From assembly GCA_013297695.1 (NCBI GenBank), contig JAAFHX010000016.1, forward strand, positions 1 to 37,157: a stretch of 37,157 bases of DNA, in the 5' to 3' direction. Under the pieces are notes generated by a model. That model was given only the letters and a program-made list of their open reading frames with translations, was not told the DNA's origin and made no database searches. This DNA is from Rhodobacterales bacterium. Lineage in GTDB: Bacteria > Pseudomonadota > Alphaproteobacteria > Rhodobacterales > Rhodobacteraceae. Shown in pieces: positions 5,344 through 28,375 of this stretch. The position numbers and the translations under genes are program-made. Numbering within the stretch: position 1 is the first letter of the stretch; each line of letters opens with the position of its first letter.

Positions 5344-6372
5344 TCAGATCGACAGCCGTGCCCCGCCCAGCACGGGCGACGCGCCCTGCGTTCCGCGCTC
5401 GCGGTAGGGCGTGGTCGAATAATGCGCGCGGTAGCATTTCGAGAAATGCGAGGGCGAGGCGAACCCGCAGGCCAGCGCCACGTTGATCACGCTCATGTCG
5501 GTCTGCATCAGCAGGTTGCGCGCCTTCTGCAGGCGCAGTTCCATGTAATAGCGTTTCGGGCTGCGGTTCAGATAGCGGCGGAACAGCCGCTCAAGCTGGC
5601 GGGTGGACATGCCCACATCCTCGGCCAGGTCAGAGGGGCTGATCGGGTCTTCTATGGCCTGTTCCATCATCTGGATGACCTGGCTCAGCTTGGGGTGGCG
5701 CACGCCGATCCGGGTGGGGATCGACAGGCGCTGCGTGTCCTGGTCGGTGCGGATCGACGAATAGATCAACTGGTCGGCCACGGTATTCGCGATCTCGTCG
5801 CCATGGTCGGCGGCGATCAGCTTCAGCATCAGGTCGATGGAACTGGTGCCCCCGGCGGTGGACAGCCGGTTGCCATCGACCACGAAGACCGACTTGGTCA
5901 GCTTCACATCCTCGAATTCCTCAAGAAAGCCGTCCTGGTTTTCCCAGTGGATGGTGGCTTTCTTTCCGTCCAGCAACCCGGCCTTTGCGACCGCCCAGCT
6001 TCCCGTGCACAGCCCCCCGATGGCCAGCCCGCGCCGCGCCTCGCGCCGCAGCCAGGCGACGATGGGCTTCGACGTCGCCCGCTGCACGTCGATCCCGCCG
6101 CAGACCAGCAGCGTATCGTCACGGTCCAGATCGCCAAGGCCCATGTCGAGCTTGAACGCGGCTCCGTTGGAACAGGTCGCGGTCTCGCCTCCCTCGCCGG
6201 CGAGTTTCCATTCGTACAGCGTCTTGCCCGCCACGCGGTTGGCGATGCGCAGCGGTTCGATGGCCCCGGCAAAGGACAGCATGGTGAACCGGTCCAGCAG
6301 CAGGAACACGAACCGGCGCGGCCGGTTCGCCTCACGCGGGCGCGTGTCGGCATGAAGCTGCGGGCGAAGCAT
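5344..6372 (-). CDS. GlxA family transcriptional regulator (DJ-1/PfpI-like domain plus AraC HTH)
   Basis: 342 aa; N-terminal RRFVFLLLDRFTMLSFAGAIEPLRIANR, C-terminal AraC HTH (DLAEDVGMSTRQLERLFRRYLNRSPKRYYMELRLQKARNLL). Confidence 0.9.
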   Translation of the reverse strand: MLRPQLHADTRPREANRPRRFVFLLLDRFTMLSFAGAIEPLRIANRVAGKTLYEWKLAGEGGETATCSNGAAFKLDMGLGDLDRDDTLLVCGGIDVQRATSKPIVAWLRREARRGLAIGGLCTGSWAVAKAGLLDGKKATIHWENQDGFLEEFEDVKLTKSVFVVDGNRLSTAGGTSSIDLMLKLIAADHGDEIANTVADQLIYSSIRTDQDTQRLSIPTRIGVRHPKLSQVIQMMEQAIEDPISPSDLAEDVGMSTRQLERLFRRYLNRSPKRYYMELRLQKARNLLMQTDMSVINVALACGFASPSHFSKCYRAHYSTTPYRERGTQGASPVLGGARLSI

Positions 6373-8572: not shown

Positions 8573-8755
8573 GTCGCGGGCGACCGATCCGGCAGAGCAA
8601 GCCGGATCGGTGGCGCTGCAGACCCCCAAAAAAAATCTGTCATCTTCTTGCGTTTTCAATGCCTTGTCCGGCGCTTGCACGGCGTCGTGCCAATAGGTCT
8701 GTCATCGTTGCGGCGACCTGTCTTGTCGGGGTGGCCTGTTTCTGTCTTATGAATA

Positions 8756-8783
8756 TTGAGATTTGAATTTAACAATGTATATG
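8756..8783 (+). promoter_or_regulatory. Candidate promoter of the sqr-RND operon
   Basis: Locally AT-rich island; TTGAGA (8756-8761), 16-bp spacer, TATATG (8778-8783), about 48 bp before the ATG at 8831. Confidence 0.4.
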
Positions 8784-8830
8784 GTGCTCCAACCGAGTCC
8801 CGCCGTTCAGGGGGGCGCGCGGGAGGGGGG

Positions 8831-10132
8831 ATGCAGATGGCGCAGGTGGTTGTTCTGGGGGCTGGTCTGGGCGGGGTCGTCATGGCCTACGAGATGATGG
8901 ATCATCTGGGTCGGGATGACCGGCTGACGGTGATCTCGAAGGGCGACTGGTACAGTTTCGTGCCGTCGAACCCCTGGGTGGCCGTGGGCTGGCGAGACCG
9001 GGCCGAGATCGAGGTTGACCTGAAAGATGCCATGAACCGCCGGGGGATCACGCTTTTGACCCAGGGGGCCGCGCTGGTGCACCCCGGAGAAAACCGGGTC
9101 GAACTGACCGATGGCCAAAGCGTCGGCTACGACTATCTCGTGATCGCGACCGGCCCTGACCTCGCTTTCGACGAGATACCGGGACTTGGGCCGGAAGGAC
9201 ATACCGAGTCGGTGTGCCACATCGACCACGCCGAACGGGCCGAAAGGGCGGTAAAGCGGCTGATCGCCAATCCCGGCCCGGTTGTCATCGGTGCCGTGCA
9301 GGGGGCAAGTTGCTTTGGCCCGGCCTATGAGTTTCTCTTCATCCTGGAAACCGCCCTGCGCCGGGCGAGGGTGCGCGACCGCGTGCCGATGACCTTTGTG
9401 ACTGCCGAGCCCTACATCGGGCATCTCGGGCTGGACGGTGTGGGTGACACGCGCGGCCTGCTGGAAGGCCAGATGCGGGCCCATCACGTCAAGTGGATCA
9501 CCAATGCCAAGGTATCCTCGGTCGATCCGGGCATGATGCATGTCGAAGAGGTGAACGAGGACGGCGGCACGAAGAAGCTGCACGACCTGCCCTTTGCCTT
9601 TTCGATGATGCTGCCCGCGTTCCGCGGCGTGCCCGCCGTGCGCGGCACGCCGGGGCTGACCAACCCGCGCGGTTTCGTTCTGGTCGACAAGTATCAGCGC
9701 AACCCGACGTTCCGGAATGTCTTCGGCGTGGGCGTGGGCGTCGCGATCCCGCCGATGGGGCCGACGCCGGTTCCCGTCGGGGTGCCCAAGACCGGCTTCA
9801 TGATCGAAAGCATGGTCACCGCCACCGCCATGAACATCGCAAGCCTGATCCGGGGGCAGGAGCCGTCGGAAGTCGGCTCATGGAACGCTGTCTGCCTGGC
9901 GGATTTCGGCGATGGCGGCGTGGCCTTTGTGGCGCAACCGCAGATACCGCCGCGCAACGTCAACTGGTCTTCGCAGGGCACATGGGTCCACTATGCCAAG
10001 ATCGGGTTCGAGAAGTACTTTCTGCGCAAGATTCGCCTGGGCAAGTCGGAACCCTTCTACGAACGCCTCGCGCTGCAGGCGCTTGGGATCGACAAGCTGA
10101 AATCCACCCATCGCGAACCCGGAGAAGCCTGA
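8831..10132 (+). CDS. sqr: Sulfide:quinone oxidoreductase-type FAD-dependent oxidoreductase
   Basis: N-terminal FAD motif VVVLGAGLGGVVMAYEM; exactly three cysteines at 129, 161 and 355 in SQR-like contexts (ESVCHIDHAE, GASCFGPAYEF, NAVCLADFGD); start ATG 8831 after a G-rich RBS (GGGAGGGGGG). Confidence 0.85.
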   Translation: MQMAQVVVLGAGLGGVVMAYEMMDHLGRDDRLTVISKGDWYSFVPSNPWVAVGWRDRAEIEVDLKDAMNRRGITLLTQGAALVHPGENRVELTDGQSVGYDYLVIATGPDLAFDEIPGLGPEGHTESVCHIDHAERAERAVKRLIANPGPVVIGAVQGASCFGPAYEFLFILETALRRARVRDRVPMTFVTAEPYIGHLGLDGVGDTRGLLEGQMRAHHVKWITNAKVSSVDPGMMHVEEVNEDGGTKKLHDLPFAFSMMLPAFRGVPAVRGTPGLTNPRGFVLVDKYQRNPTFRNVFGVGVGVAIPPMGPTPVPVGVPKTGFMIESMVTATAMNIASLIRGQEPSEVGSWNAVCLADFGDGGVAFVAQPQIPPRNVNWSSQGTWVHYAKIGFEKYFLRKIRLGKSEPFYERLALQALGIDKLKSTHREPGEA

Positions 10133-10329
10133 TGACCGTCAACCGTGCCGTCACCGCCTTTGCCGGCTTCCTGGTGCTTCTGTCGCTGGTCCTCGCCTGG
10201 GCGGTGTCGCCCTGGTTTCTGGGCCTGACCGCCTTTGTGGGGGCAAACCTGCTGCAGTCCGCCTTCACCGGGTTTTGCCCGGCGGCGTCGTTCTTCCGCA
10301 AGGTCGGCCTGCCCGAAACCGCCGCCTGA
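10132..10329 (+). CDS. DUF2892-like (YgaP transmembrane-type) small membrane protein
   Basis: 65 aa, two hydrophobic helices, ATGA overlap with sqr; MTVNRAVTAFAGFLVLLSLVLAWAVSPWFLGLTAFVGANLLQSAFTGFCPAASFFRKVGL. Confidence 0.75.
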   Translation: MTVNRAVTAFAGFLVLLSLVLAWAVSPWFLGLTAFVGANLLQSAFTGFCPAASFFRKVGLPETAA

Positions 10330-10344
10330 CCCCAAGGATCGACC

Positions 10345-11325
10345 ATGCGCCTGACGTTCCACCGTGTTTTCTTGCCGGTCTTGCTTGCGCTGTGTGCCGC
10401 CGGGTCCGGGCTGGCCGGGGAACTGGTGCTGGCCCCGGTCAAGGTGCCCGAGACCAAGGCCCTGTTCGGCCAGATCGAAAGCCGCTTTGTCGTGCCTGCC
10501 CGCAGCCGGATCGGCGGCACGATCACGGCGCTGGACGTGACCGAGGGGGATGAGGTTCAGGCCGGGCAGGTCATCGCGCGGATCGTGGATGACAAGCTGC
10601 AACTGCAGCTTTCCGCCGCCGTCGCCCGACTTGCCGCAGCCACCTCCGAACTTGACAACGCCCTGGTCGAACAGACCCGCAGCGAGGCGCTGCTGGCGCG
10701 CGGATCCACTACGGCGCAGGCGGTTGACCGCGTTCGGACCCAGGTGACCGTGGCCCGCAACGCGGTGGCCGAACTCGCCTCGGGCAAGTCGGTGATCGAA
10801 CAGCAGATGGCCGAAGGGGCCGTGATCGCCCCGGCTGCCGGGCGCGTGCTGACCATCCCCGCCCGTCTGGGCGAGGTGGTGATGGCGGGCGAGGCGGTGG
10901 CCTCGGTTGCGGCCGGGCAGGTGTTCCTGCGGCTGGCCATTCCCGAACGCCATGCCGGGGGCCTGTCGGTCGGGGCGCCGGTTGCCGTGGGGGACGGAGG
11001 GTTCTTGCGCGAAGGCCGGATCGAACGGATATATCCGCTGATCGAGGCAGGTCGGGTGACCGCCGATGTGGCCGTTGACGGGCTGTCCGACAGCTTTATC
11101 GGTCAGCGCGTCCTGGTGCGGGTGCAGGTCGGCACACGGACGGCGCTGGCGGTGCCTGCTGCCGCGATCCGGCGCAGCGCCGGGCTTGATCTTGTAAAGA
11201 TCATGACGGACGGGATGCTGCGGACTGTGACGGTGGTGCCAGGCCAGACGGTCCTTGCCCCGGATGGACCACGGGTCGAAATCCTGTCGGGCCTGCGCAG
11301 CGGCGATATCGTGCTGCTGCCATGA
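10345..11325 (+). CDS. RND efflux transporter periplasmic adaptor subunit (HlyD/MFP family)
   Basis: Signal peptide; barrel-sandwich motifs GGTITALDVTEGDEVQAGQVIARI and VIAPAAGRVLTIPARLGEVVMAGEAVASVA; overlaps the RND gene. Confidence 0.9.
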   Translation: MRLTFHRVFLPVLLALCAAGSGLAGELVLAPVKVPETKALFGQIESRFVVPARSRIGGTITALDVTEGDEVQAGQVIARIVDDKLQLQLSAAVARLAAATSELDNALVEQTRSEALLARGSTTAQAVDRVRTQVTVARNAVAELASGKSVIEQQMAEGAVIAPAAGRVLTIPARLGEVVMAGEAVASVAAGQVFLRLAIPERHAGGLSVGAPVAVGDGGFLREGRIERIYPLIEAGRVTADVAVDGLSDSFIGQRVLVRVQVGTRTALAVPAAAIRRSAGLDLVKIMTDGMLRTVTVVPGQTVLAPDGPRVEILSGLRSGDIVLLP

Positions 11326-14300
11326 TCCCATCGCCGGAACGTGGCATCGCCGGGGCGCTGACGGATGCCTTCATCACCTCTCCCCTGACGCCTCTGGCGC
11401 TGGTGGCGGCGGTTCTCATGGGTCTGGTTGCCCTCATCACCCTGCCGCGCGAGGAAGAGCCGCAGATTTCGGTGCCGATGGTGGACATCCACGTTCAGGC
11501 CCAGGGCCTGCGCGCCGAGGATGCCGTCAAGCTGGTGACCGAACCGCTGGAAACCATCGTCACCTCGATTCCGGGGGTGGATCATGTCTATTCGCAGACG
11601 CGGGACGACGCTGTTCTGGTCACAGCGCGCTTTGCGGTCGGCACCTCGTCGGACGCCGCCATCCTGCGGGTGCATGAAAAGGTCCGTGCGAACCTTGACC
11701 GCATTCCCAAGGGGATTCCCGATCCGCTGATCGTCGGGCGGGGAATCGACGACGTGGCCGTCAAGGTGCTGACCCTGGCCCCGCGCCCCGAGGCCGCCGA
11801 CCGCTGGACCCCTGCCGACCTGACCCGCGTTGCGCGCGAGGTGCAGGTGGCCGTGGCCGCGCTGCCCGAAATCGGGCTGACCTACATCGTGGGCGAGACG
11901 CCCGAAGAGATTCGCATCCGCCCCGATCCGGAACGGCTGGCGCAGGCCGGGCTGACGCTGCAGGCGCTGGCGGCCAAGGTCGAAGGCGCGAACCGCAGCT
12001 TTTCGGCGGGTCTCTTGCGCGAGAACGGGCAACAGATCGGCCTGACCGCAGGCCGCACCCTGGCCGACCTGTCCGAGATCGAAAACCTGCTGGTCACCAC
12101 CCGCGACGGGCGCGCCGTCTATGTCCGCGACGTGGCCGATGTCAGCCTTGCCACCGACACGACCGAGGCGCGGGTGTTCCAGATGGACCGCGACGGCGCG
12201 GGCTTTTCCCGCGTGCCCGCCGTGTCGCTGGCCATTGCCAAGCGGCCCGGCGCCAATGCCGTGACCATCGGAGACGAGATCGGGCAGGCCGTCGCACGCC
12301 TGCAGGGCCGCGTGATTCCCGATGATCTGGTGGTGCATGTCACCCGCGACTATGGCGAGTCGGCGAACGAAAAGGCCAACGAGCTGCTGTTCCATCTGGG
12401 CCTTGCCACGTTGTCCATCGTGGCGCTGGTCTGGGTCGCCATCGGCTGGCGCGAGGCGCTGGTGGTGCTGATCGTCATTCCCGTCACCATCCTGCTGACG
12501 CTGTTTGCGGCGCGGTTGATGGGCTACACGCTGAACCGCGTCAGCCTGTTCGCGCTGATCTTTTCCATCGGCATCCTGGTCGATGACGCCATCGTGGTGA
12601 TCGAGAACATCGCGCGGCACTGGGGCATGCATGACGGCCGCAGCCGCCGCACCGCCGCCGTCGATGCGGTGGGCGAGGTCGGCAACCCGACCATCGTGGC
12701 CACCCTGACCGTGGTGGCGGCGCTGCTGCCGATGCTGTTCGTGTCGGGCATGATGGGGCCGTACATGAGCCCCATTCCCGCCAATGCCTCGGCGGCGATG
12801 GTGTTTTCGTTCTTTGTGGCGGTCATCATCACGCCCTGGCTGATGCTGAAACTTGGCAAGGCCCATGCCGGGGGCGCGCATGGCGCAGGTCAGGGGGACG
12901 GCGGGCACATGGGGCGCATCTACCGGGCGGTGGCGCGGCCTGTCCTGAAATCGCGCGCGCGGTCCCGGGCCTTTCTTCTGGCGGTGCTGGCGCTGACCCT
13001 GGGCTCGATGGGGTTCTTCTATACCGCCGCCGTGACGGTCAAGCTTCTGCCTTTTGACAACAAGTCGGAACTGTCGGTCATGCTGGACATGCCGCGCGGC
13101 ACCTCGGTCGAAGAGACCGACCGCACCCTTGCCGATCTGGCCGCACTTCTGGGCGGCATCCCCGAAGTCACGTCGATCCAGTCGCACGCGGGCACGGCCG
13201 CGCCCTTCAACTTCAACGGCCTTGTCCGGCACAGCTATCTGCGTGCCCAACCGCATCTGGGCGACCTTCAGGTGAACCTGTCGCCCAAGGCCGGGCGGTC
13301 GCGCGAAAGCCATGCCATCGCGCTGGACATGCGGGGCAGGCTGGCAGCGCTGCCGCTGCCTGCCGGGGCCTCGGTCAAGGTGGTCGAGCCGCCGCCCGGA
13401 CCGCCGGTCATGGCGACCCTGCTGGCCGAAATCTACGGCCCCGATCCCGAAACCCGCCGCGCCGTGGCAGCGAAGGTGCGCGAGGCCTTTGCGACGGTGC
13501 CCTATATCGTCGATATCGACGACAGCTTTGGCGTGCCCGCGCCCCGGCTGCGGCTGATGCTGGACGATGCGAACCTCGATTTCTACAAGGTCGATCCGTC
13601 GGATGTCTTCGATACGGTCGGTCTGCTTTACGGCGGCAAGACCGTGGGCTTTTCGCACCGGGGCGAAGGGCGCGCGCCGCTGCCGATCCGCGTGGCTCCG
13701 GCCAGGGCCGACCGGGCGCTGGATGAACGCGCGCTGGCAACGCCGGTTCCCGCCGATGTGCTGCCCGGCGACCGTGGGGTGGTGGAACTGGGCGACGTGG
13801 TGCAGATCGCGTCCGAAACCGCATCGTTCCCGATCTTCCGTCACAACGGCAAGGCCGCCGAGATGGTCACGGCCGAGCTTGCGGGGGCCTTCGAGGCCCC
13901 GCTTTACGGCCAGATCGCCGTGGGCCGGGCGATTGCCGCCGCCGACTGGGGCGACCTGCCCAAGCCTGCAATCGTGCAGCATGGCCAGCCGCAGGATACC
14001 GCCGCGCCGGCCCTGCTGTGGGATGGCGAATGGGAGGTGACCTGGGTCACCTTTCGCGACATGGGGGCGGCGTTCGGCGTGGCGCTGGTGGGCATCTACA
14101 TCCTTGTCGTGATGCAGTTCGGGTCGTTCCGCCTGCCGCTGGTGGTGCTGACCCCGGTGCCGCTGACGCTGATCGGCATCCTGTTCGGCCACTGGCTGTT
14201 CGGCGCGCCGTTTTCGGCCACGTCGATGATCGGTTTCATCGCGCTGGCGGGGATCATCGTGCGCAACTCGATCCTGCTGGTGGATTTCATCCGCCATGCC

Positions 14301-14537
14301 CCGGGCGACGGACGGCCGATGCTGGATGTGGTGCTGCAGGCGGGGTCGATCCGGTTCAAGCCCATCCTGCTGACGGCGCTGGCGGCGATGATCGGGGCGG
14401 TGACGATCCTGACCGACCCGATCTTTCAGGGGCTTGCGATCTCGCTGCTGTTCGGCCTGCTGTCCTCGACCATCCTGACGGTGCTGGTCATTCCGGCGAT
14501 CTATGTGATCTTCCGCAGCGGGCGGGGGGCAGCCTGA
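11322..14537 (+). CDS. RND family efflux transporter permease (AcrB/AcrD/AcrF superfamily)
   Basis: 1071 aa; LPREEEPQISVPMVDIHV, GILVDDAIVVIENIARH, IALAGIIVRNSILLVDFIR, GSIRFKPILLTALAAMIGAV motifs; ATGA overlap with the adaptor gene. Confidence 0.95.
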   Translation: MIPSPERGIAGALTDAFITSPLTPLALVAAVLMGLVALITLPREEEPQISVPMVDIHVQAQGLRAEDAVKLVTEPLETIVTSIPGVDHVYSQTRDDAVLVTARFAVGTSSDAAILRVHEKVRANLDRIPKGIPDPLIVGRGIDDVAVKVLTLAPRPEAADRWTPADLTRVAREVQVAVAALPEIGLTYIVGETPEEIRIRPDPERLAQAGLTLQALAAKVEGANRSFSAGLLRENGQQIGLTAGRTLADLSEIENLLVTTRDGRAVYVRDVADVSLATDTTEARVFQMDRDGAGFSRVPAVSLAIAKRPGANAVTIGDEIGQAVARLQGRVIPDDLVVHVTRDYGESANEKANELLFHLGLATLSIVALVWVAIGWREALVVLIVIPVTILLTLFAARLMGYTLNRVSLFALIFSIGILVDDAIVVIENIARHWGMHDGRSRRTAAVDAVGEVGNPTIVATLTVVAALLPMLFVSGMMGPYMSPIPANASAAMVFSFFVAVIITPWLMLKLGKAHAGGAHGAGQGDGGHMGRIYRAVARPVLKSRARSRAFLLAVLALTLGSMGFFYTAAVTVKLLPFDNKSELSVMLDMPRGTSVEETDRTLADLAALLGGIPEVTSIQSHAGTAAPFNFNGLVRHSYLRAQPHLGDLQVNLSPKAGRSRESHAIALDMRGRLAALPLPAGASVKVVEPPPGPPVMATLLAEIYGPDPETRRAVAAKVREAFATVPYIVDIDDSFGVPAPRLRLMLDDANLDFYKVDPSDVFDTVGLLYGGKTVGFSHRGEGRAPLPIRVAPARADRALDERALATPVPADVLPGDRGVVELGDVVQIASETASFPIFRHNGKAAEMVTAELAGAFEAPLYGQIAVGRAIAAADWGDLPKPAIVQHGQPQDTAAPALLWDGEWEVTWVTFRDMGAAFGVALVGIYILVVMQFGSFRLPLVVLTPVPLTLIGILFGHWLFGAPFSATSMIGFIALAGIIVRNSILLVDFIRHAPGDGRPMLDVVLQAGSIRFKPILLTALAAMIGAVTILTDPIFQGLAISLLFGLLSSTILTVLVIPAIYVIFRSGRGAA

Positions 14538-16097: not shown

Positions 16098-16111
<14 letters not shown>
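14615..16111 (+). CDS. Leucyl aminopeptidase family (M17) protein
   Basis: GKGVCFDAGGLAIKTGPQMFGMKGDMGGAAAV and VFDTDCEGRMVLADVLHYA match M17 metal/active-site regions; GTG start at 14615 (TTG at 14597 also possible). Confidence 0.88.
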
Positions 16112-17074
<963 letters not shown>

Positions 17075-17078
<4 letters not shown>

Positions 17079-18031
17079 GTGCCCGGCTCCAGATGGCAGG
17101 CCACCTCATGCCCGGCCCCGCGCAGGGCGGGGACCTGTGCGCATGCCGCAAAGGCGCTGCGGCAGCGGGGGGCAAAGGCGCAGCCCCTCGGGCGGAAAAG
17201 CGGCGAGGGGGGCGCGCCTTCGATGGCCTGCAGGCGGTGCGGGCGCGGACCCTCCAACGGCGGGATCGAATCGAGCAGGGCAAGGGTGTAGGGGTGCCGG
17301 GGGTCGGCGAAGAGGGCATCCGCAGGCGCACGCTCCACGATCCGGCCCGCGTACATCACCATGATCCGGTCGGCGAGTTCTGCCATGACGCCCAGATCAT
17401 GCGTGATGAACACGATGGCCGATCCGTGTTTCGCCTGCAGGTTCCGCAGAAGGTCCAGTATCTGCGCCTGCACGGTCACATCCAGCGCAGTTGTCGGCTC
17501 GTCGGCCACCAGCAGCGCGGGGTTGCAGGTCAACGCCATGGCGATCACCGCGCGCTGCCGCATGCCGCCCGACAACTGGTGCGGATAGCGGTGCACGGCC
17601 TCTTCGGGCCGGGGGATGCCGACCTCGGCCAGAAGGTCGATGGCGCGGTCCCAGGCGGCGCGCCTGGTCACCTTCCGGTGCGCCAGAACCTGTTCGGCGA
17701 TCTGCCAGCCGATGGTATAGACCGGGGTCAGCGCGGTCATCGGGTCCTGGAAGATCATCGCCATGTCGCGCCCGCGCAACTGCCGGATTTCGCGCGCGGG
17801 AAGGCCGACCAGTTCCCGGCCCCGAAACCGGATCGACCCTTCGATCCGCGCGTTCAGGTCGGCGATCAGCGCCATCACCGCCAGCATCGTCACCGTCTTG
17901 CCCGACCCGCTTTCGCCGACGATGCCGAGAATCTCGCCCTCGGCCACGTCGAAACTGACACCATCCAGCACGCGGACCAGCCCGGCTTCGGTGTTGAACG
18001 ACACCTTCAGATCGCGCACGGAAAGGATCAT
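17075..18031 (-). CDS. Peptide ABC transporter ATP-binding protein, DppD/OppD-type
   Basis: 318 aa; [52 protein letters not shown] overlap with the downstream ATPase gene. Confidence 0.93.
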
Positions 18032-18999
18032 GCGCTGCGCACCCGCGGGTCGAGCAGGATATAGACCACATCGACCACCGCATTGGCCATCACCACGAAG
18101 AAGCTGGCGTACAGCACCGTCGTCATGATCACCGGCAGATCAAGGTTCTGCAGCGCGTCATAGGTCAGCTTGCCCACACCCTGCAGACCGAACACCACCT
18201 CGGTCAGCAGCGCCGATCCGCCGACGAGCGCGCCGAAATCGAGGCCGAACAGCGTGACAAAGGCAATCAGCGAGGTGCGCAGGGCGTGCACCAGCAGGAT
18301 GCGCGTTTCCGACAGGCCCTTGGCGCGGGCGGTGCGGATGTAGTCTTCCTGCAAGGCCTCGGTGATGCTGGCGCGCAGCACGCGGGCATAAAGCCCGATG
18401 TACAGGATCGACAGCGTGATCCAGGGGATCACCAGCGCGAGGAACCAGCCCTTCGGGCTTTCCGAAAACGGCACATAGCCAAGCGGCGGCACCCATCCGA
18501 GGAACCATGTGTCCTTGAACCGGCTTTGGGTCAGCAGGTTCATCACCTCGCCCAGCCAGTAGACCGGCATCGAAATGCCGATCAGCCCCAGGATCATCAG
18601 CAGCTTGTCCGGCCAGCGGTCGCGGCAGGCGGCTGCCACGACGCCGATGATGACCGAGAACACCACCCACAGCACCGCCGCCCCGAACACCAGCGACAGG
18701 GTCACCGGTATCGTGTCCAGCACCGCGGGCACGACCTTCCAGCCCCGGTTGACGAAGGATGTCAGATCACCGGTAACGAAGATCTTCTGCATCATCGTCA
18801 GGTACTGGATGTAGAACGGCTGATCGAAACCGAACGAGATGCGCACCGCCTCCAGCACCTCGGGCGAGGCGTTGCGGCCGGCGATCCGTGCCGCCGGGTC
18901 AACGCCGGGCGTGGCGAAAAAGATCAGGAAGACCAGCATGGAAATCCCGACCATCACAAAGACCATCTGGGCCAGCCGCTGAAGGATCGCGAACACCAT
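18028..18999 (-). CDS. Peptide ABC transporter permease, DppB-type
   Basis: 323 aa; LQRLAQMVFVMVGISMLVFLIFF N-terminus, YIRTARAKGLSETRILLVHALRTSL EAA-type loop. Confidence 0.92.
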   Translation of the reverse strand: MVFAILQRLAQMVFVMVGISMLVFLIFFATPGVDPAARIAGRNASPEVLEAVRISFGFDQPFYIQYLTMMQKIFVTGDLTSFVNRGWKVVPAVLDTIPVTLSLVFGAAVLWVVFSVIIGVVAAACRDRWPDKLLMILGLIGISMPVYWLGEVMNLLTQSRFKDTWFLGWVPPLGYVPFSESPKGWFLALVIPWITLSILYIGLYARVLRASITEALQEDYIRTARAKGLSETRILLVHALRTSLIAFVTLFGLDFGALVGGSALLTEVVFGLQGVGKLTYDALQNLDLPVIMTTVLYASFFVVMANAVVDVVYILLDPRVRSA

Positions 19000-20003
19000 C
19001 AGCCGCGCCCCAGCTTGACCCTGGATTTCGGGTCCAGCGCGTCGCGCAAGCCGTCCCCGAACACGTTCAGCGACAGCACCGACAGCACGATCATGATGCC
19101 GGGCGCCAGCGCCACCCAGGGCCGGGTGTACAGCAGCGACTGCCCGTCCTGGATGATGGTGCCCCAGCTTGCATTCGGCGGCTGCACACCGATCGACAGG
19201 AACGACAGCGCGCTTTCGGTCAGCATATTCAGCGCCAACATGATCGGGACAAAGACAATCAGCGTGGTCGAGACATTGGGCAGGATGTCCTTGCGCAGGA
19301 TGCGCCCGGGCGAGGCACCAAGCCCGATGGCCGCCATCACGAAATCAGACTGGCGCAGGCTCATCACCTGACCGCGCACGGGACGGGCCACATAGGGAAT
19401 GTAGATCAGCCCGATGATGAAGATCGGCAGGGCAAGCGACCCGGAGTCGATCTCGACCGGGCCAAGCCTGATGCCCTGCGTGATCATCACGACCGACAGC
19501 GAGATCGCCAGCAGGTAGACCGGAAAGGCCCAGAGCACGTCCAGCACGCGGCTGATGATGGTATCGGCCAGACCGCCATAGAACCCGGCAACCAGCCCCA
19601 GCAGGGTTGCGAAGGCCAGCGTCAGGATCGTGGCGATGCCCGCGATGGTGATCGAATTCAGCCCGCCGTACAACAGCCGCGCCATCACGTCGCGCCCCTG
19701 GTTGTCGGCCCCCAGAAAGTAGTTTCCCGGCTGCCACGTCGGCCCGATGGGCGAAAACCCAAGCGCAAGCCCGGTCTTTGGCAGTTCCATCACGGGTTGC
19801 TCCACCCCGTTCACGATGATGACCGCATCCAGCGTGGACCGGAACGGATCGACGCCGGCCCAGGAGGCATAGACCGGGGCCAGCGCGCAGCACACAAGGA
19901 TCAGAACGAACACCGACAGTGCGGCCATGGCAGAACCGTCACGGCGCAACCGCCGCAGCGCCGTGGCCCAGGGGCCACGGCTGAGGGTCGGGGCTGCCGT
20001 CAC
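18999..20003 (-). CDS. Peptide ABC transporter permease, DppC-type
   Basis: 334 aa; LGADNQGRDVMARLLYGG and SDFVMAAIGLGASPGRILRKDILPN motifs typical of DppC. Confidence 0.92.
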   Translation of the reverse strand: MTAAPTLSRGPWATALRRLRRDGSAMAALSVFVLILVCCALAPVYASWAGVDPFRSTLDAVIIVNGVEQPVMELPKTGLALGFSPIGPTWQPGNYFLGADNQGRDVMARLLYGGLNSITIAGIATILTLAFATLLGLVAGFYGGLADTIISRVLDVLWAFPVYLLAISLSVVMITQGIRLGPVEIDSGSLALPIFIIGLIYIPYVARPVRGQVMSLRQSDFVMAAIGLGASPGRILRKDILPNVSTTLIVFVPIMLALNMLTESALSFLSIGVQPPNASWGTIIQDGQSLLYTRPWVALAPGIMIVLSVLSLNVFGDGLRDALDPKSRVKLGRG

Positions 20004-21653
20004 CTACTGGACCCAGGACTGCGAGACCATCCAGTAGAACTGGTTGTTGAACTGGAAGTTGCCGACACGCTTTGACACGAAGTCGATGCGCTTGGGCGTG
20101 AACAGGGCGGCCATCGGGGCGGCATCGGTCACCGCACGGTCGATGTCGGCCCACATCTTGTTGGCGGCCTCGGGGTCGGTCACGCCCAGCAGCATCGCCT
20201 CGTCCATCTTCGCCTGGATGTCCTTGTCACAGAAGCCTGCGATGTTGATGGAACTGTCGGACCCCGGCGTGAACGAGGCGCAGCCGAACAGGATGTTCAG
20301 GAAATCCGACGCGGCCGGATAGTCCTGATACCACTGCGTGATGCTGATCTGCACGTTGTTGCTGGTGTTCTGGATATAGGTGAACTGGATGTTCGGCGAC
20401 AGCGGCTTGACCTCGGCGTCATAGCCGATGTCGGTCAGAACCGATTGCATGTAGGTGCCGATGGCCTTGGAGATGGCGGTATCTTCGGCGATCACGGTCA
20501 CCTTCTGTCCCTTGGTGCCCGACTCCTCGACCAGCGCGCGGGCCTTTTCAAGATCGGGGGCCGACCAGACCTGATCGGGGTTCTTGGTATAGGGGCAATA
20601 GGGCACATGGCCGGGAAAGCCGGGCGGCAGGACCTGACAGACCGGGCTTGCCAGCACCGGGCCGCCGAACAGGTTGACCAGAGCATTCCGGTCGATGGCA
20701 AAGTTCACGGCCTGCCGGGCCTTCACATTGTCGAAGGGCGGGATGTTGGTGTTCATCGGCGCATACCACCAGGCGGTCAGCGGGGTGATATGGACCTGAT
20801 CGGCATAGGTCGATCCGATCTCGGCCAGACGGTCGGCGGGCGGCTGGTCATACATCCAGTCGGCCTCGCCGTTCATCACTGCATTCACCTCGGCCTCGTC
20901 GGTCAGGCCGAAATCGTACTGGATCACGTCGGGATAACCGTCGGGCTGGGCATCCTCGCTCCACACCTTGAAATGCGGGTTGCGGGTCATGGTCATGCCG
21001 CTGTTCGGGTCATAGGCGGAAATCATGTAGGCGCCGGTGCCGGGAACGGGGGCGGTGCCCACGTCCTGCGCGGGCGTGTCGGCGGGCAGGATCACGGCAT
21101 GGGGCAGGGCCAGCTTGTCCAGGAATTCGGCATCGGGCCGGGTCAGGGTGATGGTGATGACGCCCGTCGCCTCGTCGGCGGAAACCCCGCCCTCCAGCGT
21201 GCAGGTGGCCGGTTCCGCAAGGCAGGCATCCGCGCCAACGATCACCGAATAGAACCCGCCTGCCGTAGGCGACGATACCTTGAAGATGCGCTGGAGGCTG
21301 GCCACCACGTCTTTCGTCGTCACCTCCTGCCCGTTCGAGAACTTGATCCCGGGGCGCAGCTTGAAGGTATAGGTCTTGCCGTCGGCGCTGACCTCGGGCA
21401 TCGCCTCGGCCAGATCGGGAACCTTGGTAAAGCCATCTTCGCCCGCCGCCTTCTTGAAGGCCAGAAGCCCGTCATACAGACCCTGATAGATCTGCCAGTA
21501 TTGCAGCGTGTAATTAATGTGCGGGTCCACCGTGCCCGCCGCCGACCGCGCCACAAGGCGCATCGTGCCCCCGCGATGTTCTTCCTTGTATTCTGCCCAG
21601 GCGGGCAGCGCCAGGACCAGCGCCGCAGATGTGGCAAGCAGCAGTTTCTTCAT
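20004..21653 (-). CDS. Peptide ABC transporter substrate-binding protein (SBP family 5)
   Basis: 549 aa; signal peptide MKKLLLATSAALVLALPAWA; VPDLAEAMPEVSADGKTYTFKLRPGIKFSNGQEVTTKDVVASLQRI. Confidence 0.93.
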   Translation of the reverse strand: MKKLLLATSAALVLALPAWAEYKEEHRGGTMRLVARSAAGTVDPHINYTLQYWQIYQGLYDGLLAFKKAAGEDGFTKVPDLAEAMPEVSADGKTYTFKLRPGIKFSNGQEVTTKDVVASLQRIFKVSSPTAGGFYSVIVGADACLAEPATCTLEGGVSADEATGVITITLTRPDAEFLDKLALPHAVILPADTPAQDVGTAPVPGTGAYMISAYDPNSGMTMTRNPHFKVWSEDAQPDGYPDVIQYDFGLTDEAEVNAVMNGEADWMYDQPPADRLAEIGSTYADQVHITPLTAWWYAPMNTNIPPFDNVKARQAVNFAIDRNALVNLFGGPVLASPVCQVLPPGFPGHVPYCPYTKNPDQVWSAPDLEKARALVEESGTKGQKVTVIAEDTAISKAIGTYMQSVLTDIGYDAEVKPLSPNIQFTYIQNTSNNVQISITQWYQDYPAASDFLNILFGCASFTPGSDSSINIAGFCDKDIQAKMDEAMLLGVTDPEAANKMWADIDRAVTDAAPMAALFTPKRIDFVSKRVGNFQFNNQFYWMVSQSWVQ

Positions 21654-22697: not shown

Positions 22698-23639
22698 TCA
22701 CTCGAACACGCAGCGGGGGAAGTAAAAGCTGACGACCCAGTTCGGCATGTCGACGATTTCCGAAATCCGCAGGTCGCCGCAGGTCGAGCACAGCATGTAG
22801 GCGTCAACCGGGGAAAGCTTGTACGCGGCGCACAGCAGGTCGATCATGGCCGACACCGCGTCGCGCGCGCCCGACATCAGGTCGGGGCCGATGCCGGTCG
22901 TGGCCTCGTAGCCCTTGGCATCCAGGTGCCGGGTCACCGGGCCGGGCGTGGTAAAGCGCGGCGTCTTCAGATGCACGCCCTTCACCAGATCAAGCGTCAG
23001 CACCACATCCATCGGGCTTTCGATGGCGGTGCCGCAGACCTCTCCATCACCTTGGGCCGCATGGGTGTCGCCCACGCTGAACAGCGCACCCGCCACCTCG
23101 ACGGGCAGATACAGCGTGGTGCCCGCCGCAAGGTCGCGGATATCCAGATTGCCGCCGACCCGGCGCGGAGGCACGACCGAATGCAGCCCCGCTGCGGCGG
23201 GCGCGCAGCCGATGGTGCCCGCAAAGGGCTTCAGCGGCACGCGGCCATTCCGGCCATAAAGCGCGGGCGACAGGGCGGAATCATATGTCCAGACATGCAG
23301 CGCCGGGTCGGGAAACTGGTCGGCCAGCAGGCCGAAACCGGGGATGTTCGCCGTCCACCCCCAGCCCGAGGGCGCAAAGCTGTCGATGGTGACCTTCAGC
23401 GCGTCGCCGGGTTCGGCCCCTTCGATGTGGATCGGGCCGGAGACCGGGTTCACCTTGCCGAAATCGAGCGCGGTCACATCGGCCACGGTCGAGCGCGCCG
23501 AAAGCTGGCCGGCCGAGCTGTCAAGGCACTGGAACAGGATCGTCGATCCCGGGGCCACACGCTCGGCCGGGGGCAGGGAATTGTCCCAGCCGAAATGATG
23601 CTGCGCGCCATGAATGGTATAGTCGCAAGCCTTGCACAT
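22698..23639 (-). CDS. Acetamidase/formamidase family protein
   Basis: 313 aa; start at 23639 (MCKACDYTIHGAQHHFGWDNSLPPA), GPIHIEGAEPGDALKVTI, SVGDTHAAQGDGEVCGTAIE characteristic of FmdA/AmdA. Confidence 0.9.
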   Translation of the reverse strand: MCKACDYTIHGAQHHFGWDNSLPPAERVAPGSTILFQCLDSSAGQLSARSTVADVTALDFGKVNPVSGPIHIEGAEPGDALKVTIDSFAPSGWGWTANIPGFGLLADQFPDPALHVWTYDSALSPALYGRNGRVPLKPFAGTIGCAPAAAGLHSVVPPRRVGGNLDIRDLAAGTTLYLPVEVAGALFSVGDTHAAQGDGEVCGTAIESPMDVVLTLDLVKGVHLKTPRFTTPGPVTRHLDAKGYEATTGIGPDLMSGARDAVSAMIDLLCAAYKLSPVDAYMLCSTCGDLRISEIVDMPNWVVSFYFPRCVFE

Positions 23640-23846
23640 CTTTCGTCTCCCTGTCGCGGTTTGTCCGCCTTGCACAAGGTTATGACCCGAACCGGACCGC
23701 GATCAAGCGGGCAGGGGATGCGCGGCATCCGAAGGCCGGCCGGGTCGATGCGCCGGCACAGGGCACGGCACCTTCCGCACGGGCAGCATTTCTGCGCGGC
23801 CCGCAGTCCGGTTGCATCTTTTCCGGGCAACCGGTCCCGAAGGGCA

Positions 23847-23900
23847 TTGACAGCGGGGCTGGCCGTTCGTCCAATCAGCCTTGGGGGCGACCATGGTCGC
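23847..23900 (+). promoter_or_regulatory. Candidate promoter and palindromic operator upstream of the second peptide transporter operon
   Basis: TTGACA (23847-23852), 17-bp spacer, TCCAAT (23870-23875), then a perfect 14-bp palindrome GCGACCATGGTCGC (23887-23900), then RBS GAGGGAG and start ATG. Confidence 0.5.
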
Positions 23901-23933
23901 GATCCCGCAAGAACAGACAAGAGGGAGATGGAC

Positions 23934-25532
23934 ATGCAGCTCGGGCATGGATTTGGTCGCGCGGCGGCCCTTGCGGTGCTGATGGCCGGCACGGCCCCGA
24001 TGGCTTTGTTGGCCGAAACGCCGGCCGATACGCTGGTGATTGCCGATGCCATAGACGACATCGTGTCGATCGACCCGGCAGAGGCCTTTGAATTCTCGGG
24101 CGTCGATCTGAACAATAACACCTACGACACGCTGATCGAGCTGGACCCGACCAAGCCGGGCGAACTGGTGCCGGGGCTGGCCGAAAGCTGGTCGGTCGCC
24201 GATGACGGCATGACCTACAGCTTCAAGATCCGGCCGGGCGTCACCTTCTCCAGCGGCAACCCGCTGACGGCCGAGGATGCGGCCCTGTCGCTGCGCCGGG
24301 TGGTCAAGCTGAACAAGACCCCCGCCTTCATCATCACCCAGTTCGGCCTGACGCCCGAGAACGTCGATCAGATGATCACCGCCGACGGCGATACGGTGAC
24401 GCTGAAGACCGACAAGGCCTATGCGCCGTCGTTCGTCTACAACTGCCTGACGGCGGGCGTGGCGAACATCGTCGATGTCAAGACCGCCATGGCGAACGAG
24501 GCTGACGGCGACATGGGCAATGCCTGGCTGAAGGCCAACAGCGCCGGCACCGGGGCCTATGTGCTGAAATCCTTCAAGCCGAACGAAGGCTATGTGCTGG
24601 AAGCCCGGCAAGGCCACTGGCGCGGCGATGCCAAGCTGAAGACCGTGTTCATGCAGCACATTCCCGAAGGCGCGACGCAGCGCCTGCTGCTGGAGAAGGG
24701 CGATATCGACATCGCGCGCGAGATGACGCCGACCGATATCGAGGGTCTGGCGGGCAACCCTGACGTCAAGGTGCAGAACGATGTCGGCGGGCAGGTCTAT
24801 TACCTGGGCCTGAACCAGAAGACCCCGGCCCTTGCCAACCCCAAGGTGCAGGAGGCAATGCGCTGGGCGGTGGATTACAAGGGCATGACCGACACCATCC
24901 TGCGCGGGCAGTGGGTGGTGCATCAGGCCTTCCTGCCGCTGGGGTTCCTGGGCGCGCTGGACGAGAACGTCTATACGCTCGACATCGCGAAGGCCAAGGC
25001 ACTGATGGCGGAATCGGGCCTGCCGCTGCCGCTGGAGGTGAAGTTCACCGTCCGCAACAACCAGGAACGGCTGGATATCGCGACCTCGCTGCAGAACACC
25101 TTCGCGCAGGCGGGCATCAACCTGGTGATGGACGTGGGCGACGGCAAGCAGGGGCTGGAGGTCTATCGCGGCCGCAAGCACGAGATGACGCTGCAGACCT
25201 GGGGCCCGGACTATCCCGACCCGCACACCAACGCCTCGACCTTCGCGATGAACCCCGACAACAGCGATGCGGCCAATGCCACCGGCTATCTGGCCTGGCG
25301 CAACGCCTGGGACCCGGGCCCCTTGAACGCGCTGACCGAGGCCGCCGTGGTGGAAAAGGACGCCGCCAAGCGCGCCGCGATGTATGAGGACATCCAGCGC
25401 CAGCAGCGCGACAACAGCGCCTTCGTGATGATGTTCCAGCAGGCCAAGCAGGATGCCCTGCGCGCCAATGTGAACGGCTTCTTCGCAGGTGGCGCGACGG
25501 ACGCCGCGACCTACTGGACGATCACGAAGTGA
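23934..25532 (+). CDS. Peptide ABC transporter substrate-binding protein (SBP family 5)
   Basis: About 532 aa from ATG 23934 (23928 also possible); signal peptide, then LVPGLAESWSVADDGMTYSFKIRPGVTFSSGNPLTAEDAALSLRRV. Confidence 0.93.
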   Translation: MQLGHGFGRAAALAVLMAGTAPMALLAETPADTLVIADAIDDIVSIDPAEAFEFSGVDLNNNTYDTLIELDPTKPGELVPGLAESWSVADDGMTYSFKIRPGVTFSSGNPLTAEDAALSLRRVVKLNKTPAFIITQFGLTPENVDQMITADGDTVTLKTDKAYAPSFVYNCLTAGVANIVDVKTAMANEADGDMGNAWLKANSAGTGAYVLKSFKPNEGYVLEARQGHWRGDAKLKTVFMQHIPEGATQRLLLEKGDIDIAREMTPTDIEGLAGNPDVKVQNDVGGQVYYLGLNQKTPALANPKVQEAMRWAVDYKGMTDTILRGQWVVHQAFLPLGFLGALDENVYTLDIAKAKALMAESGLPLPLEVKFTVRNNQERLDIATSLQNTFAQAGINLVMDVGDGKQGLEVYRGRKHEMTLQTWGPDYPDPHTNASTFAMNPDNSDAANATGYLAWRNAWDPGPLNALTEAAVVEKDAAKRAAMYEDIQRQQRDNSAFVMMFQQAKQDALRANVNGFFAGGATDAATYWTITK

Positions 25533-25537
25533 CCGGA

Positions 25538-25567
25538 CGGGCCGCCTTCCACCCGGGCGGCGGCCCG
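25538..25567 (+). promoter_or_regulatory. Hairpin between substrate-binding protein and permease genes (candidate attenuator or stabilising stem)
   Basis: CGGGCCGCC (25538-25546) and GGCGGCCCG (25559-25567): perfect 9-bp stem, 12-nt loop, 5 nt after the SBP stop codon; no U-tract. Confidence 0.6.
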
Positions 25568-25575
25568 ACCTTCGC

Positions 25576-26634
25576 ATGACCGGCAGTCCTGTTTCCGGCA
25601 ACCGCGCGTTTGTTCTGGCGGGGCGCATCGGCCTTGGCCTCGGGTCGCTTGCGATCACGATCCTGGGCCTTCTGCTCATCACCTTCCTGATCAGCCGCGT
25701 CGTGCCCATCGACCCGGTGCTGTCCATCGTGGGCGAGCGCGCGACCGAAGCGCAGATCGCGGCGGTGCGCGCCAAGCTGGGCCTTGACCTGCCGATGTGG
25801 CAGCAGTTCCTGATCTATGTCCGCGATGCGCTGACGGGCGACCTTGGAACGTCGATCCGCACCGGGGAACCGGTCGCGGCGGAAATCGCGCGCTATTTCC
25901 CCGCCACGCTGGAGCTTGCGACGCTCGGCACGATCTTCGGCACGCTGGTCGGGGTGCCTGCGGGCGTGCTGGCCGCGACCCGCCCGGGCAGCCTGGCGGA
26001 TCAGGTGGTGCGGGTGATCGGCCTGATGGGCTATTCGATGCCGGTGTTCTGGCTGGGGCTGATCGGGCTTCTGGTGTTCTACGGGCAGCTTGACTGGGTG
26101 TCCGGGCCGGGGCGGCTCGACCCGACCTATGACATGATGATGCAGTTCACCCTGACGCCCTATACCGGGATGATCCTGATCGATTCCGCGCTGAACGGCG
26201 CCTGGGACGTGTTCGGCAACGCGGTCAGCCACATCATCCTGCCGGCCGGGCTGCTGGGCTATGTCTCGATGGCCTACATCAGCCGGATGACCCGCAGCTT
26301 CATGATGAACGAGCTGGGGCAGGAATACATCACCACCGCCCGCGTCAAGGGCATGCCGGAATGGCGCGTGGTCTGGGTACATGCGATGAAGAACGCGCTG
26401 GTGCCGCTGATCACGGTCATCACGCTGTCCTATGCCTATCTGCTGGAAGGGTCGGTCCTGACCGAGACGATCTTTGCCTGGCCGGGCCTGGGCAGCTATA
26501 TCACCGACGCGCTGTTCGCCGCCGACATGCCCGCCGTGCTGGGGGGCACGGTGGTCGTGGGGGCGGTGTTCATCACGCTGAACATGGCGTCGGACCTGCT
26601 GTATCGTCTGGTGGACCCGAGGGCGCGGGCATGA
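25576..26634 (+). CDS. Peptide ABC transporter permease, DppB-type
   Basis: 352 aa from ATG 25576; FLISRVVPIDPVLSIVGERATEAQIAAVRAKLGLDLPMWQQFLIYVRDALTGDLGTSI. Confidence 0.93.
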   Translation: MTGSPVSGNRAFVLAGRIGLGLGSLAITILGLLLITFLISRVVPIDPVLSIVGERATEAQIAAVRAKLGLDLPMWQQFLIYVRDALTGDLGTSIRTGEPVAAEIARYFPATLELATLGTIFGTLVGVPAGVLAATRPGSLADQVVRVIGLMGYSMPVFWLGLIGLLVFYGQLDWVSGPGRLDPTYDMMMQFTLTPYTGMILIDSALNGAWDVFGNAVSHIILPAGLLGYVSMAYISRMTRSFMMNELGQEYITTARVKGMPEWRVVWVHAMKNALVPLITVITLSYAYLLEGSVLTETIFAWPGLGSYITDALFAADMPAVLGGTVVVGAVFITLNMASDLLYRLVDPRARA

Positions 26635-27536
26635 CGGCGCTGCGCCAGTGGCTGCAGGACCCGAGCCCCGCGTCGCGCAGGCAGGCGCGGCTGGGGCAGA
26701 TGTGGCTGGCCTGGCTGCGCATCAGGCGCAACCGGCTGGCCATGGCGGGGCTGGTGATCGTGGGCACCTTGCTGGTGGTGGCGGCACTCGCCCCGTGGAT
26801 CGCGCCGCATGATCCGCTGGCACAGGACCTGACGCGCCGCCTTCTGCCGCCGCTGACGCCCGGAAACCTGCTGGGCACCGACGATTTCGGGCGCGATATC
26901 CTATCGCGCATCATCTATGGCGCGCGCATCACGCTGTATATCATCGGGCTGGTGGCGGTGACCGCCCCGGTGCTGGGCCTGCTGATCGGCACCGTGGCGG
27001 GCTATTTCGGCGGCTGGGTCGATGCCACGCTGATGCGGCTGACCGACATCTTCCTGGCCTTTCCGCGCCTGATCCTGGCGCTGGCGCTGGTGGCCGTGCT
27101 GGGGCCGGGGATCGGCAACGCGATCCTTGCCATCGCGCTGACCGCCTGGCCACCCTATGCCCGCGTCGCCCGGGCCGAGACGCTGACCGTGCGCAATTCC
27201 GACTACATCGCCGCGATCCGCCTGCAGGGCGCGTCCCCGGCGCGGATCATCGCGGGCCATGTGGTGCCGATGTGCCTGCCGTCGGTCATCATCCGCGTCA
27301 CGCTCGACATGGCGGGGGTGATCCTGATCGCTGCCGGACTGGGGTTCCTGGGCCTCGGCGTGCAGCCGCCCCTGCCGGAATGGGGGCTGATGATCTCATC
27401 AGGCCGGAAATACCTGTTCGAGCAGTGGTGGGTCGCCACCATGCCGGGCCTTGCGATCTTTGTCGTCTCGCTTGGCTTCAACCTGCTGGGCGACGGGTTG
27501 CGCGACGTGCTGGACCCGCGGAGCGCCGCGCGATGA
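26631..27536 (+). CDS. Peptide ABC transporter permease, DppC-type
   Basis: 301 aa; LLGTDDFGRDILSRIIYGARITL and SDYIAAIRLQGASPARIIAGHVVP; ATGA overlap upstream. Confidence 0.93.
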   Translation: MTALRQWLQDPSPASRRQARLGQMWLAWLRIRRNRLAMAGLVIVGTLLVVAALAPWIAPHDPLAQDLTRRLLPPLTPGNLLGTDDFGRDILSRIIYGARITLYIIGLVAVTAPVLGLLIGTVAGYFGGWVDATLMRLTDIFLAFPRLILALALVAVLGPGIGNAILAIALTAWPPYARVARAETLTVRNSDYIAAIRLQGASPARIIAGHVVPMCLPSVIIRVTLDMAGVILIAAGLGFLGLGVQPPLPEWGLMISSGRKYLFEQWWVATMPGLAIFVVSLGFNLLGDGLRDVLDPRSAAR

Positions 27537-28371
27537 CGCTGCTGGATGTGCGCAACCTGCGCGTCACCTTCCAGACGGAAACCGGCCCGGTGCAGGCGGT
27601 GCGCGGCGTGTCCTTCTCGCTTGGCCGCGAACGGCTGGGCATCGTGGGCGAGAGCGGGTCCGGCAAGACCATCACGGGCCGTGCGGTGCTGCGCCTGATC
27701 CGCCCGCCGGGCAGGGTCGAGGCCGATGCCATGGTCTTCGACGGGCAGGACCTGCTGCACGCCACCGACCGCGAGATGCGCGCCCTGCGCGGCAAGCGCA
27801 TCGGCATGGTGATGCAGGACCCGAAGTATTCGCTGAACCCGGTGATGACCGTGGGCCGGCAACTGACCGAAGGGCTGCGCCTGCGCGACGGGCTGGGCCG
27901 GGCCGATGCCGGGGCCAAGGCACGCGCCGCGCTGGAGGCGGTGCAGATCCGTGATCCCGACCGGGTGATGGACGCCTATCCGCACGAGCTGTCGGGCGGC
28001 ATGGGCCAGCGGGTGATGATCGCCATGATGCTGATCCCCGAACCCGACCTGCTGATCGCCGACGAGCCCACCAGCGCGCTGGACGTGACCGTGCAGGCCG
28101 AGGTGCTGTCGATCCTCGATGCGCTGGTGCGCGACCGGGGGATGGGGCTGATCTTCATCAGTCACGACCTGCGGCTTGTCGCCCGGTTCTGCGACCGGGT
28201 TCTGGTCATGTACAAGGGCCGCATCGTCGAGGAAATCGCGGCGCGCGACCTGATGGCGGCGCGCCACCCCTATACGCAGGGCCTGCTGAATTGCCTGCCG
28301 CGCATCGGCGGCCCGCGCACGCCCCTGCCGGGGCTGGACCGCTCGGGTGCCTGGGCATCCGGGGGCGCGCC

Positions 28372-28375
<4 letters not shown>
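27533..28375 (+). CDS. Peptide ABC transporter ATP-binding protein, DppD-type
   Basis: 280 aa; [52 protein letters not shown]; overlaps neighbours. Confidence 0.93.

Follow-up and report, generated by a model that had tools for sequence, protein, structure and literature searches.

A recurrent operon joining sulfide:quinone oxidoreductase to an RND pump, a candidate exporter module for sulfane sulfur

Introduction

By what route does sulfur derived from sulfide leave a Gram-negative cell? This is a standing question: for Rhodobacter capsulatus, one account states that the relation of polysulfide formation and of sulfide:quinone oxidoreductase (SQR) products to extracellular sulfur globules is unknown (PMC9995734), and work on Chlorobaculum refers to an unknown mechanism (PMC12285230). 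A pump joined to SQR and linked to a regulator would be a concrete candidate gene for that exit route. Here, we consider such a locus in a Rhodobacterales bacterium (assembly GCA_013297695.1, contig JAAFHX010000016.1, positions 1 to 37,157; the whole stretch of 37,157 nucleotides is referred to as the window), where the forward strand holds a compact four-gene operon encoding a type I SQR, a small DUF2892 membrane protein, a periplasmic adaptor and a permease of the resistance-nodulation-division (RND) superfamily. An earlier note, made from the DNA letters, had suggested that the pump might export the reactive sulfur product of SQR. Taking together the comparisons presented below, we would give roughly even chances to the operon being a sulfide-induced tripartite exporter module for SQR-derived sulfane sulfur; if this is so, sulfur compounds would join drugs and metals among the known substrates of that transporter superfamily.

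Results

The positions of the genes and of other features of the window are collected in Table 1. The compact operon that the earlier note described is present with all four genes, although some of its details required revision. The SQR gene begins at ATG 8837 (MAQVVV...) or at 8831 (MQMAQ...) and ends with the stop at 10130-10132, so that position 8745, from which the operon had been said to extend, falls in promoter sequence. Adaptor and permease do overlap by ATGA (11322-11325), but the SQR/DUF2892 junction, claimed to be of the same kind, is TGATG with a 1-nt overlap (TGA 10130-10132, ATG 10132-10134); a 15-nt gap then separates DUF2892 from the adaptor ATG at 10345. The operon is flanked by a class II DAHP synthase gene upstream and an M17 aminopeptidase gene downstream. 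As had also been observed, the operon itself holds no gene for an outer membrane factor, a dioxygenase or a rhodanese; elsewhere, the genome has a single TolC-like outer membrane efflux protein gene and one gene for a Blh/PDO-like dioxygenase.

Table 1. Features of the window and their positions.
Feature	Position	Strand	Details
AraC-type regulator with DJ-1/PfpI domain	5344-6372	-	
Candidate SqrR-type operator, TTTC-N8-GAAT	8739-8754		AT-rich island upstream of sqr; one mismatch to ATTC-N8-GAAT
Type I sulfide:quinone oxidoreductase (SQR)	8837-10132	+	431 aa; alternative start 8831
DUF2892 / YgaP-like transmembrane (TM) membrane protein	10132-10329	+	65 aa; PF11127
RND periplasmic adaptor (membrane fusion protein)	10345-11325	+	326 aa
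RND permease	11322-14537	+	1071 aa; ACR_tran
Opp/Dpp-type ABC transporter cluster	16098-21653		
Opp/Dpp-type ABC transporter cluster	22701-28372		near FmdA/AmdA-type amidase

By sequence, the SQR is a type I enzyme. Among solved structures, the best match is to the SQR of A. ferrooxidans (3sz0, E 8e-147), and the A. aeolicus enzyme matches at 1.6e-104, compared with only 7.5e-10 for human SQR and 5e-18 for 3h8i; the first two we take to be type I, the human enzyme type II and 3h8i type V. The three cysteines reported in the earlier note as 129/161/355 are indeed there, numbered in that case from the 8831 start; counted from 8837 they are C127, C159 and C353, and they are conserved in 67, 67 and 68, respectively, of 68 aligned SQRs. 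These are exactly the positions that the earlier note gave for the catalytic/disulfide cysteines of the R. capsulatus SQR (127/159/353). The R. capsulatus enzyme, which is under SqrR, shares the SQR type of the window enzyme, and SqrR-type control also appears in relatives of the window operon; the available portion of that work discusses no pump alongside SQR, unlike the arrangement seen here (PMC9995734).

Whether SQR and pump belong together beyond this genome was addressed by two surveys, with neighbourhood genes called by targeted tblastn given GC-rich DNA and its shadow open reading frames. In a first set of 80 RND proteins, the closest relatives in GTDB genomes and thus a sample biased to near relatives, adaptor and DUF2892 genes precede the permease in most loci, and SQR and a divergent ArsR gene are also present in many. 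The second survey drew 399 genomes evenly from the phylum and found 33 other genomes with an RND permease at 57-73% identity, followed by a clear gap down to 46%. Of these 33 loci, 23 have a type I SQR no more than 7 kb away, 25 have DUF2892 and 25 have ArsR. Type I SQR is encoded at all in 25 of the 33 genomes, and it is adjacent to the pump (within 7 kb) in 23 of these 25, against 0.12 expected from genome size, a comparison that treats genomes as independent, so that its exact p-value deserves little weight. In a class-level even sample of 289 genomes, the odds ratio for co-occurrence of SQR and RND is 49 (p 1e-8). In 14 genomes from four other families of the phylum (L178, L193, L200 and L203 among these loci), more distant RNDs, of 37-45% identity, likewise have a type I SQR at a distance of about 6 kb or less, and many of these distant SQR-linked pump loci have DUF2892 and ArsR as well. 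The arrangement, which the earlier note had allowed might be peculiar to one genome, is therefore widespread, with a type I SQR nearby in 23 of the 33 genomes that carry a close RND relative. SQR may stand upstream in the same direction as the pump, downstream of it or divergent from it, and this varying gene order makes repeated assembly likelier than inheritance of one block. A chance or unique arrangement of SQR and pump is rejected by the survey.

At some loci a different enzyme takes the place of type I SQR. Beside the pump at L102 (Paracoccus denitrificans PD1222 plasmid 1), L104 (Azospirillum lipoferum), L028 and L144 there is instead a type II-like SQR, closest to the human mitochondrial enzyme (211 bits; 3e-61 for the Paracoccus protein) and provided with an N-terminal twin-arginine-like (Tat-like) leader, read by eye. 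The pairing of two unrelated SQR types with one pump argues that the reaction, rather than the enzyme, may be the link, and the Tat-like leader favours a periplasmic location of the product, in the compartment from which RND pumps draw their substrates. We note separately that the type II-like SQRs at these loci adjoin DUF5368, and that finding a type II SQR in the periplasm would be out of the ordinary. The Paracoccus locus is moreover a large plasmid sulfur-handling island (2719-13021 of L102): its first part encodes a PDO-like metallo-beta-lactamase protein, DUF2892, YeeE, DUF6691, a DUF442 sulfurtransferase and ArsR, and it continues with a cytochrome c/cytochrome b pair, DUF2892-adaptor-RND, DUF5368 and the Tat-leader type II-like SQR.

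Neighbours of this sort bring into view the alternative that the pump exports processed sulfur anions (thiosulfate, sulfite) or organic persulfides formed downstream of SQR, and not the direct SQR product. PDO-like dioxygenase, rhodanese-like or YeeE genes adjoin the pump at L102, L160, L163, L165 and L171, and the Blh/PDO-like gene of the window genome, albeit located elsewhere, fits the same scheme. The commonest pump partners are nevertheless SQR and DUF2892, not a dioxygenase or a sulfurtransferase, and sulfite is described as already served by TauE-/YeiH-type exporters in a 2025 survey (PMC12423496); we therefore consider export of processed sulfur unlikely.

The genes for ArsR repressors point to control by sulfane sulfur. 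In our locus set, which is mostly alphaproteobacterial, the pump is no more than 4 kb away from 80 of the 82 ArsR genes at pump loci, and the cysteine pair of the SqrR/BigR dithiol sensor is complete in 63 of the 82 proteins. The SqrR recognition sequence is ATTC-N8-GAAT (PMC9774250); exact copies are found in the 350 bp preceding the ArsR gene in 32 of 113 cases (a count that includes some loci twice, through overlapping stretches), compared with 0.8% of stretches drawn at random from these loci. In the window genome, two dithiol ArsRs are encoded away from the operon, at C188 and C238. The candidate operator upstream of sqr is weak, as local shuffling yields as many sites at one mismatch or fewer in about 5% of cases; the relatives L023 and L024 have exact sites in the same region. 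SqrR-type control of the window operon in trans appears plausible on these grounds. Regarding the two regulators themselves, the genome's only TolC-like gene and the C188 ArsR gene lie about 6 kb apart on one contig (L208, G000:C188; 3301-4683 and 10422-10814), with no operator match near the ArsR gene, and at C238 (L209, G000:C238; 4133-6373) genes for the Blh/PDO-like dioxygenase, DUF6691 and YeeE stand divergent from the dithiol ArsR gene, constituting a BigR-type operon. The BigR operon of Xylella and Agrobacterium resembles the module proposed here in that a dithiol ArsR repressor governs a sulfide-handling operon, but it detoxifies through a Blh sulfurtransferase/dioxygenase, whereas the window module has a putative RND exporter instead (PMC5823870). 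The Paracoccus locus joins genes of the BigR-operon type to the pump family of the window.

The pump proteins carry the expected family signatures. The adaptor matches TIGR01730 at 117 bits (cut-off 94.9), as well as HlyD_D23 and HlyD_3, and the permease matches ACR_tran over its full length at 476 bits, with an AcrB-like fold. Its proton relay consists of D421, D422, R981, R1011 and T1018, and at these positions (AcrB D407, D408, K940, R971 and T978) all 107 clade members have the same residues, Arg replacing Lys940 throughout. The closest solved structures are those of the drug pumps BpeF, OqxB and AcrB. The window pump thus shares fold, full-length ACR_tran match, adaptor and relay residues with AcrAB-TolC, BpeF and OqxB, but it is only about 20-23% identical to them, has the Arg substitution, lacks the phenylalanine pocket and keeps other genomic company. 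The permease stays below the cut-off of the curated family models: it scores 411 bits with the HAE drug-pump model RND_permease_2 (cut-off 1250), 265 bits with the drug-pump model 2A0602 (cut-off 940) and 240 bits with the CusA/CzcA model TIGR00914 (cut-off 701). In a tree the pump family is monophyletic (support 100) and stands apart from AcrB, AcrD, MdtB, MdtC and CusA, with three other RNDs of the same genome also outside it; this was a quick tree with long reference branches, from which we use the separation and not the deep order. Phylogenetic placement, which the earlier note had regarded as potentially damaging to its proposal, accordingly does not put the window RND together with any of the E. 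coli drug or copper exporters that were compared. Membership of the window RND in either of those E. coli groups is rejected by tree and family scores alike.

These results bear on the possibility that the pump is an ordinary multidrug or stress pump under sulfane-sulfur control, for which reactive sulfur would be a stress signal and the substrate would be something other than sulfur. Such a pump would accord with the fold and the nearest structures, and MarR-family drug-efflux regulators sense sulfane sulfur according to two reports (PMC8614764, PMC11211675). The low identity to those drug pumps and the NCBIfam drug-pump scores far under cut-off count against it, however, and a shared operon together with co-occurrence with two unrelated SQR types exceeds mere co-regulation, making this explanation rather improbable in our judgement.

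Metal or metal-sulfide efflux is a further alternative: sulfide would upset metal homeostasis, and what the pump would export from the periplasm is metal, either as ions or in complexes with sulfide. The adaptor is slightly similar to CzcB (55.7 bits, far under the cut-off of 319), many ArsR proteins sense metals, and metal-sulfide export is the explanation that its authors favour for H2S-raised RND genes of Azospira (PMC5358917). Yet the CusA/CzcA model gives the permease a lower score than the HAE drug-pump model does, and neither cut-off is reached; the permease contains no cysteine (clade mean 0.17); the equivalents of CusA Met573, Met623 and Met672 are M, L and A, a triad not conserved in the clade; AcrB D408, missing from CusA, is kept; and the neighbouring ArsRs bear the sulfur-sensing cysteine pair. 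We hold metal efflux to be quite improbable.

Positions of the AcrB phenylalanine pocket are small or polar residues in the pump family, an invariant Arg342 occupies the position of AcrB Tyr327, and an invariant, family-specific FNFNGLVRH-YLR segment is found at the position of the AcrB switch loop. These features suggest, weakly, that the pocket is polar and possibly anion-binding.

The DUF2892 protein matches PF11127 at 47.9 bits (gathering cut-off 25.3). Its sole cysteine, C49 in a TGFCP motif, is kept in 120 of 120 aligned sequences, and it is an attractive idea that the protein may act as a membrane sulfur carrier.

Discussion

We propose that type I SQR would oxidise sulfide at the cytoplasmic membrane, passing electrons to the quinone pool and releasing sulfane sulfur as polysulfide or as persulfide on a small thiol. 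Together with a TolC-type channel that is shared and encoded elsewhere, adaptor and permease would make up a tripartite exporter driven by protons. This exporter would capture the sulfane-sulfur product, which is reactive and probably anionic, in the periplasm or at the outer leaflet and expel it; expulsion would prevent poisoning and could feed extracellular sulfur. The invariant membrane cysteine of DUF2892 may pass sulfur from SQR to the pump, and a SqrR/BigR-type dithiol repressor, which would control the module in most relatives, would act in trans in the window genome. We favour such an oxidise-and-expel model because it agrees with the pairing of the genes, with their regulators and with the likely location of the product in the Tat-SQR variant. 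A bolder version, possible but in our opinion doubtful, is that the RND family is a dedicated sulfane-sulfur exporter working through a TolC-type channel with the DUF2892 cysteine as carrier, and that it supplies the missing route to the extracellular sulfur of Gram-negative sulfide oxidisers. The partnership of RND and SQR put forward in the earlier note is thus strongly supported by the survey, the SqrR/BigR regulators, the operators and the replacement of one SQR by another. Computation establishes the operon, its gene families and their recurrence, the SqrR-type repressors and operators near the pump in relatives, and the proton relay, whereas we infer the exported substrate, the direction of transport, capture in the periplasm, the physical role of DUF2892 and control in the window genome. 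A search of the window genome for SoxY gave no match, which does not imply absence, as the assembly is 84% complete and no control genome matched.

The closest precedent comes from Azospira suillum PS, a betaproteobacterium. Its genes Dsui_3440-3443 (unknown protein, RND, SQR, membrane fusion protein; 2017) are raised by H2S and have a fitness effect by Bar-seq; they resemble the window operon in holding SQR, RND, adaptor and an unknown protein in one operon, a likeness of gene content alone, and differ from it in gene order (PMC5358917). The 2025 survey describes RND genes near sulfane-sulfur-responsive ArsR repressors, as in relatives of the window operon, and regards RND pumps as likely targets of SqrR/sHdrR-type sensors and likely sulfur-compound transporters; its main text, to the extent available, describes no SQR-DUF2892-adaptor-RND module (PMC12423496). 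The view of the earlier note that an export link was not established consequently holds for function, which the accessible portions of these sources do not show, but not for the association itself, as RND genes beside SQR or sulfane-sulfur sensors had already been reported (PMC5358917, PMC12423496). New here are the definition of an RND family, counts of its linkage across the phylum, its pairing with SQRs of two types, the evidence from operators and a conserved DUF2892 partner.

Several observations weigh against the proposed exporter module. At ten of the 33 sampled loci a type I SQR is missing from the surrounding 7 kb, several loci consist of adaptor and RND only, with or without DUF2892, and a sister RND branch at about 45% identity (L184-L187, L190-L192, L194) was found without SQR, DUF2892 or ArsR neighbours. 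The window operon has no adjacent dithiol ArsR, although most relatives do, and its operator departs from the consensus at one position. In Azospira, deletion of the SQR operon left the rate of H2S oxidation unchanged (PMC5358917). The argument from the pocket is weak, given that E. coli MdtB and MdtC also lack most of the AcrB pocket phenylalanines, and the AlphaFold2 (AF2) model of the permease is of low confidence (predicted local distance difference test, pLDDT, 65), too poor for pocket mapping.

Other features of the window

No sulfur link was seen among the other window genes checked, and the AraC-type regulator on the reverse strand is unconnected to the sulfur operon. The two Opp/Dpp-type ABC transporter clusters downstream look like ordinary systems for peptide or amide uptake, the second of them lying near the amidase gene.

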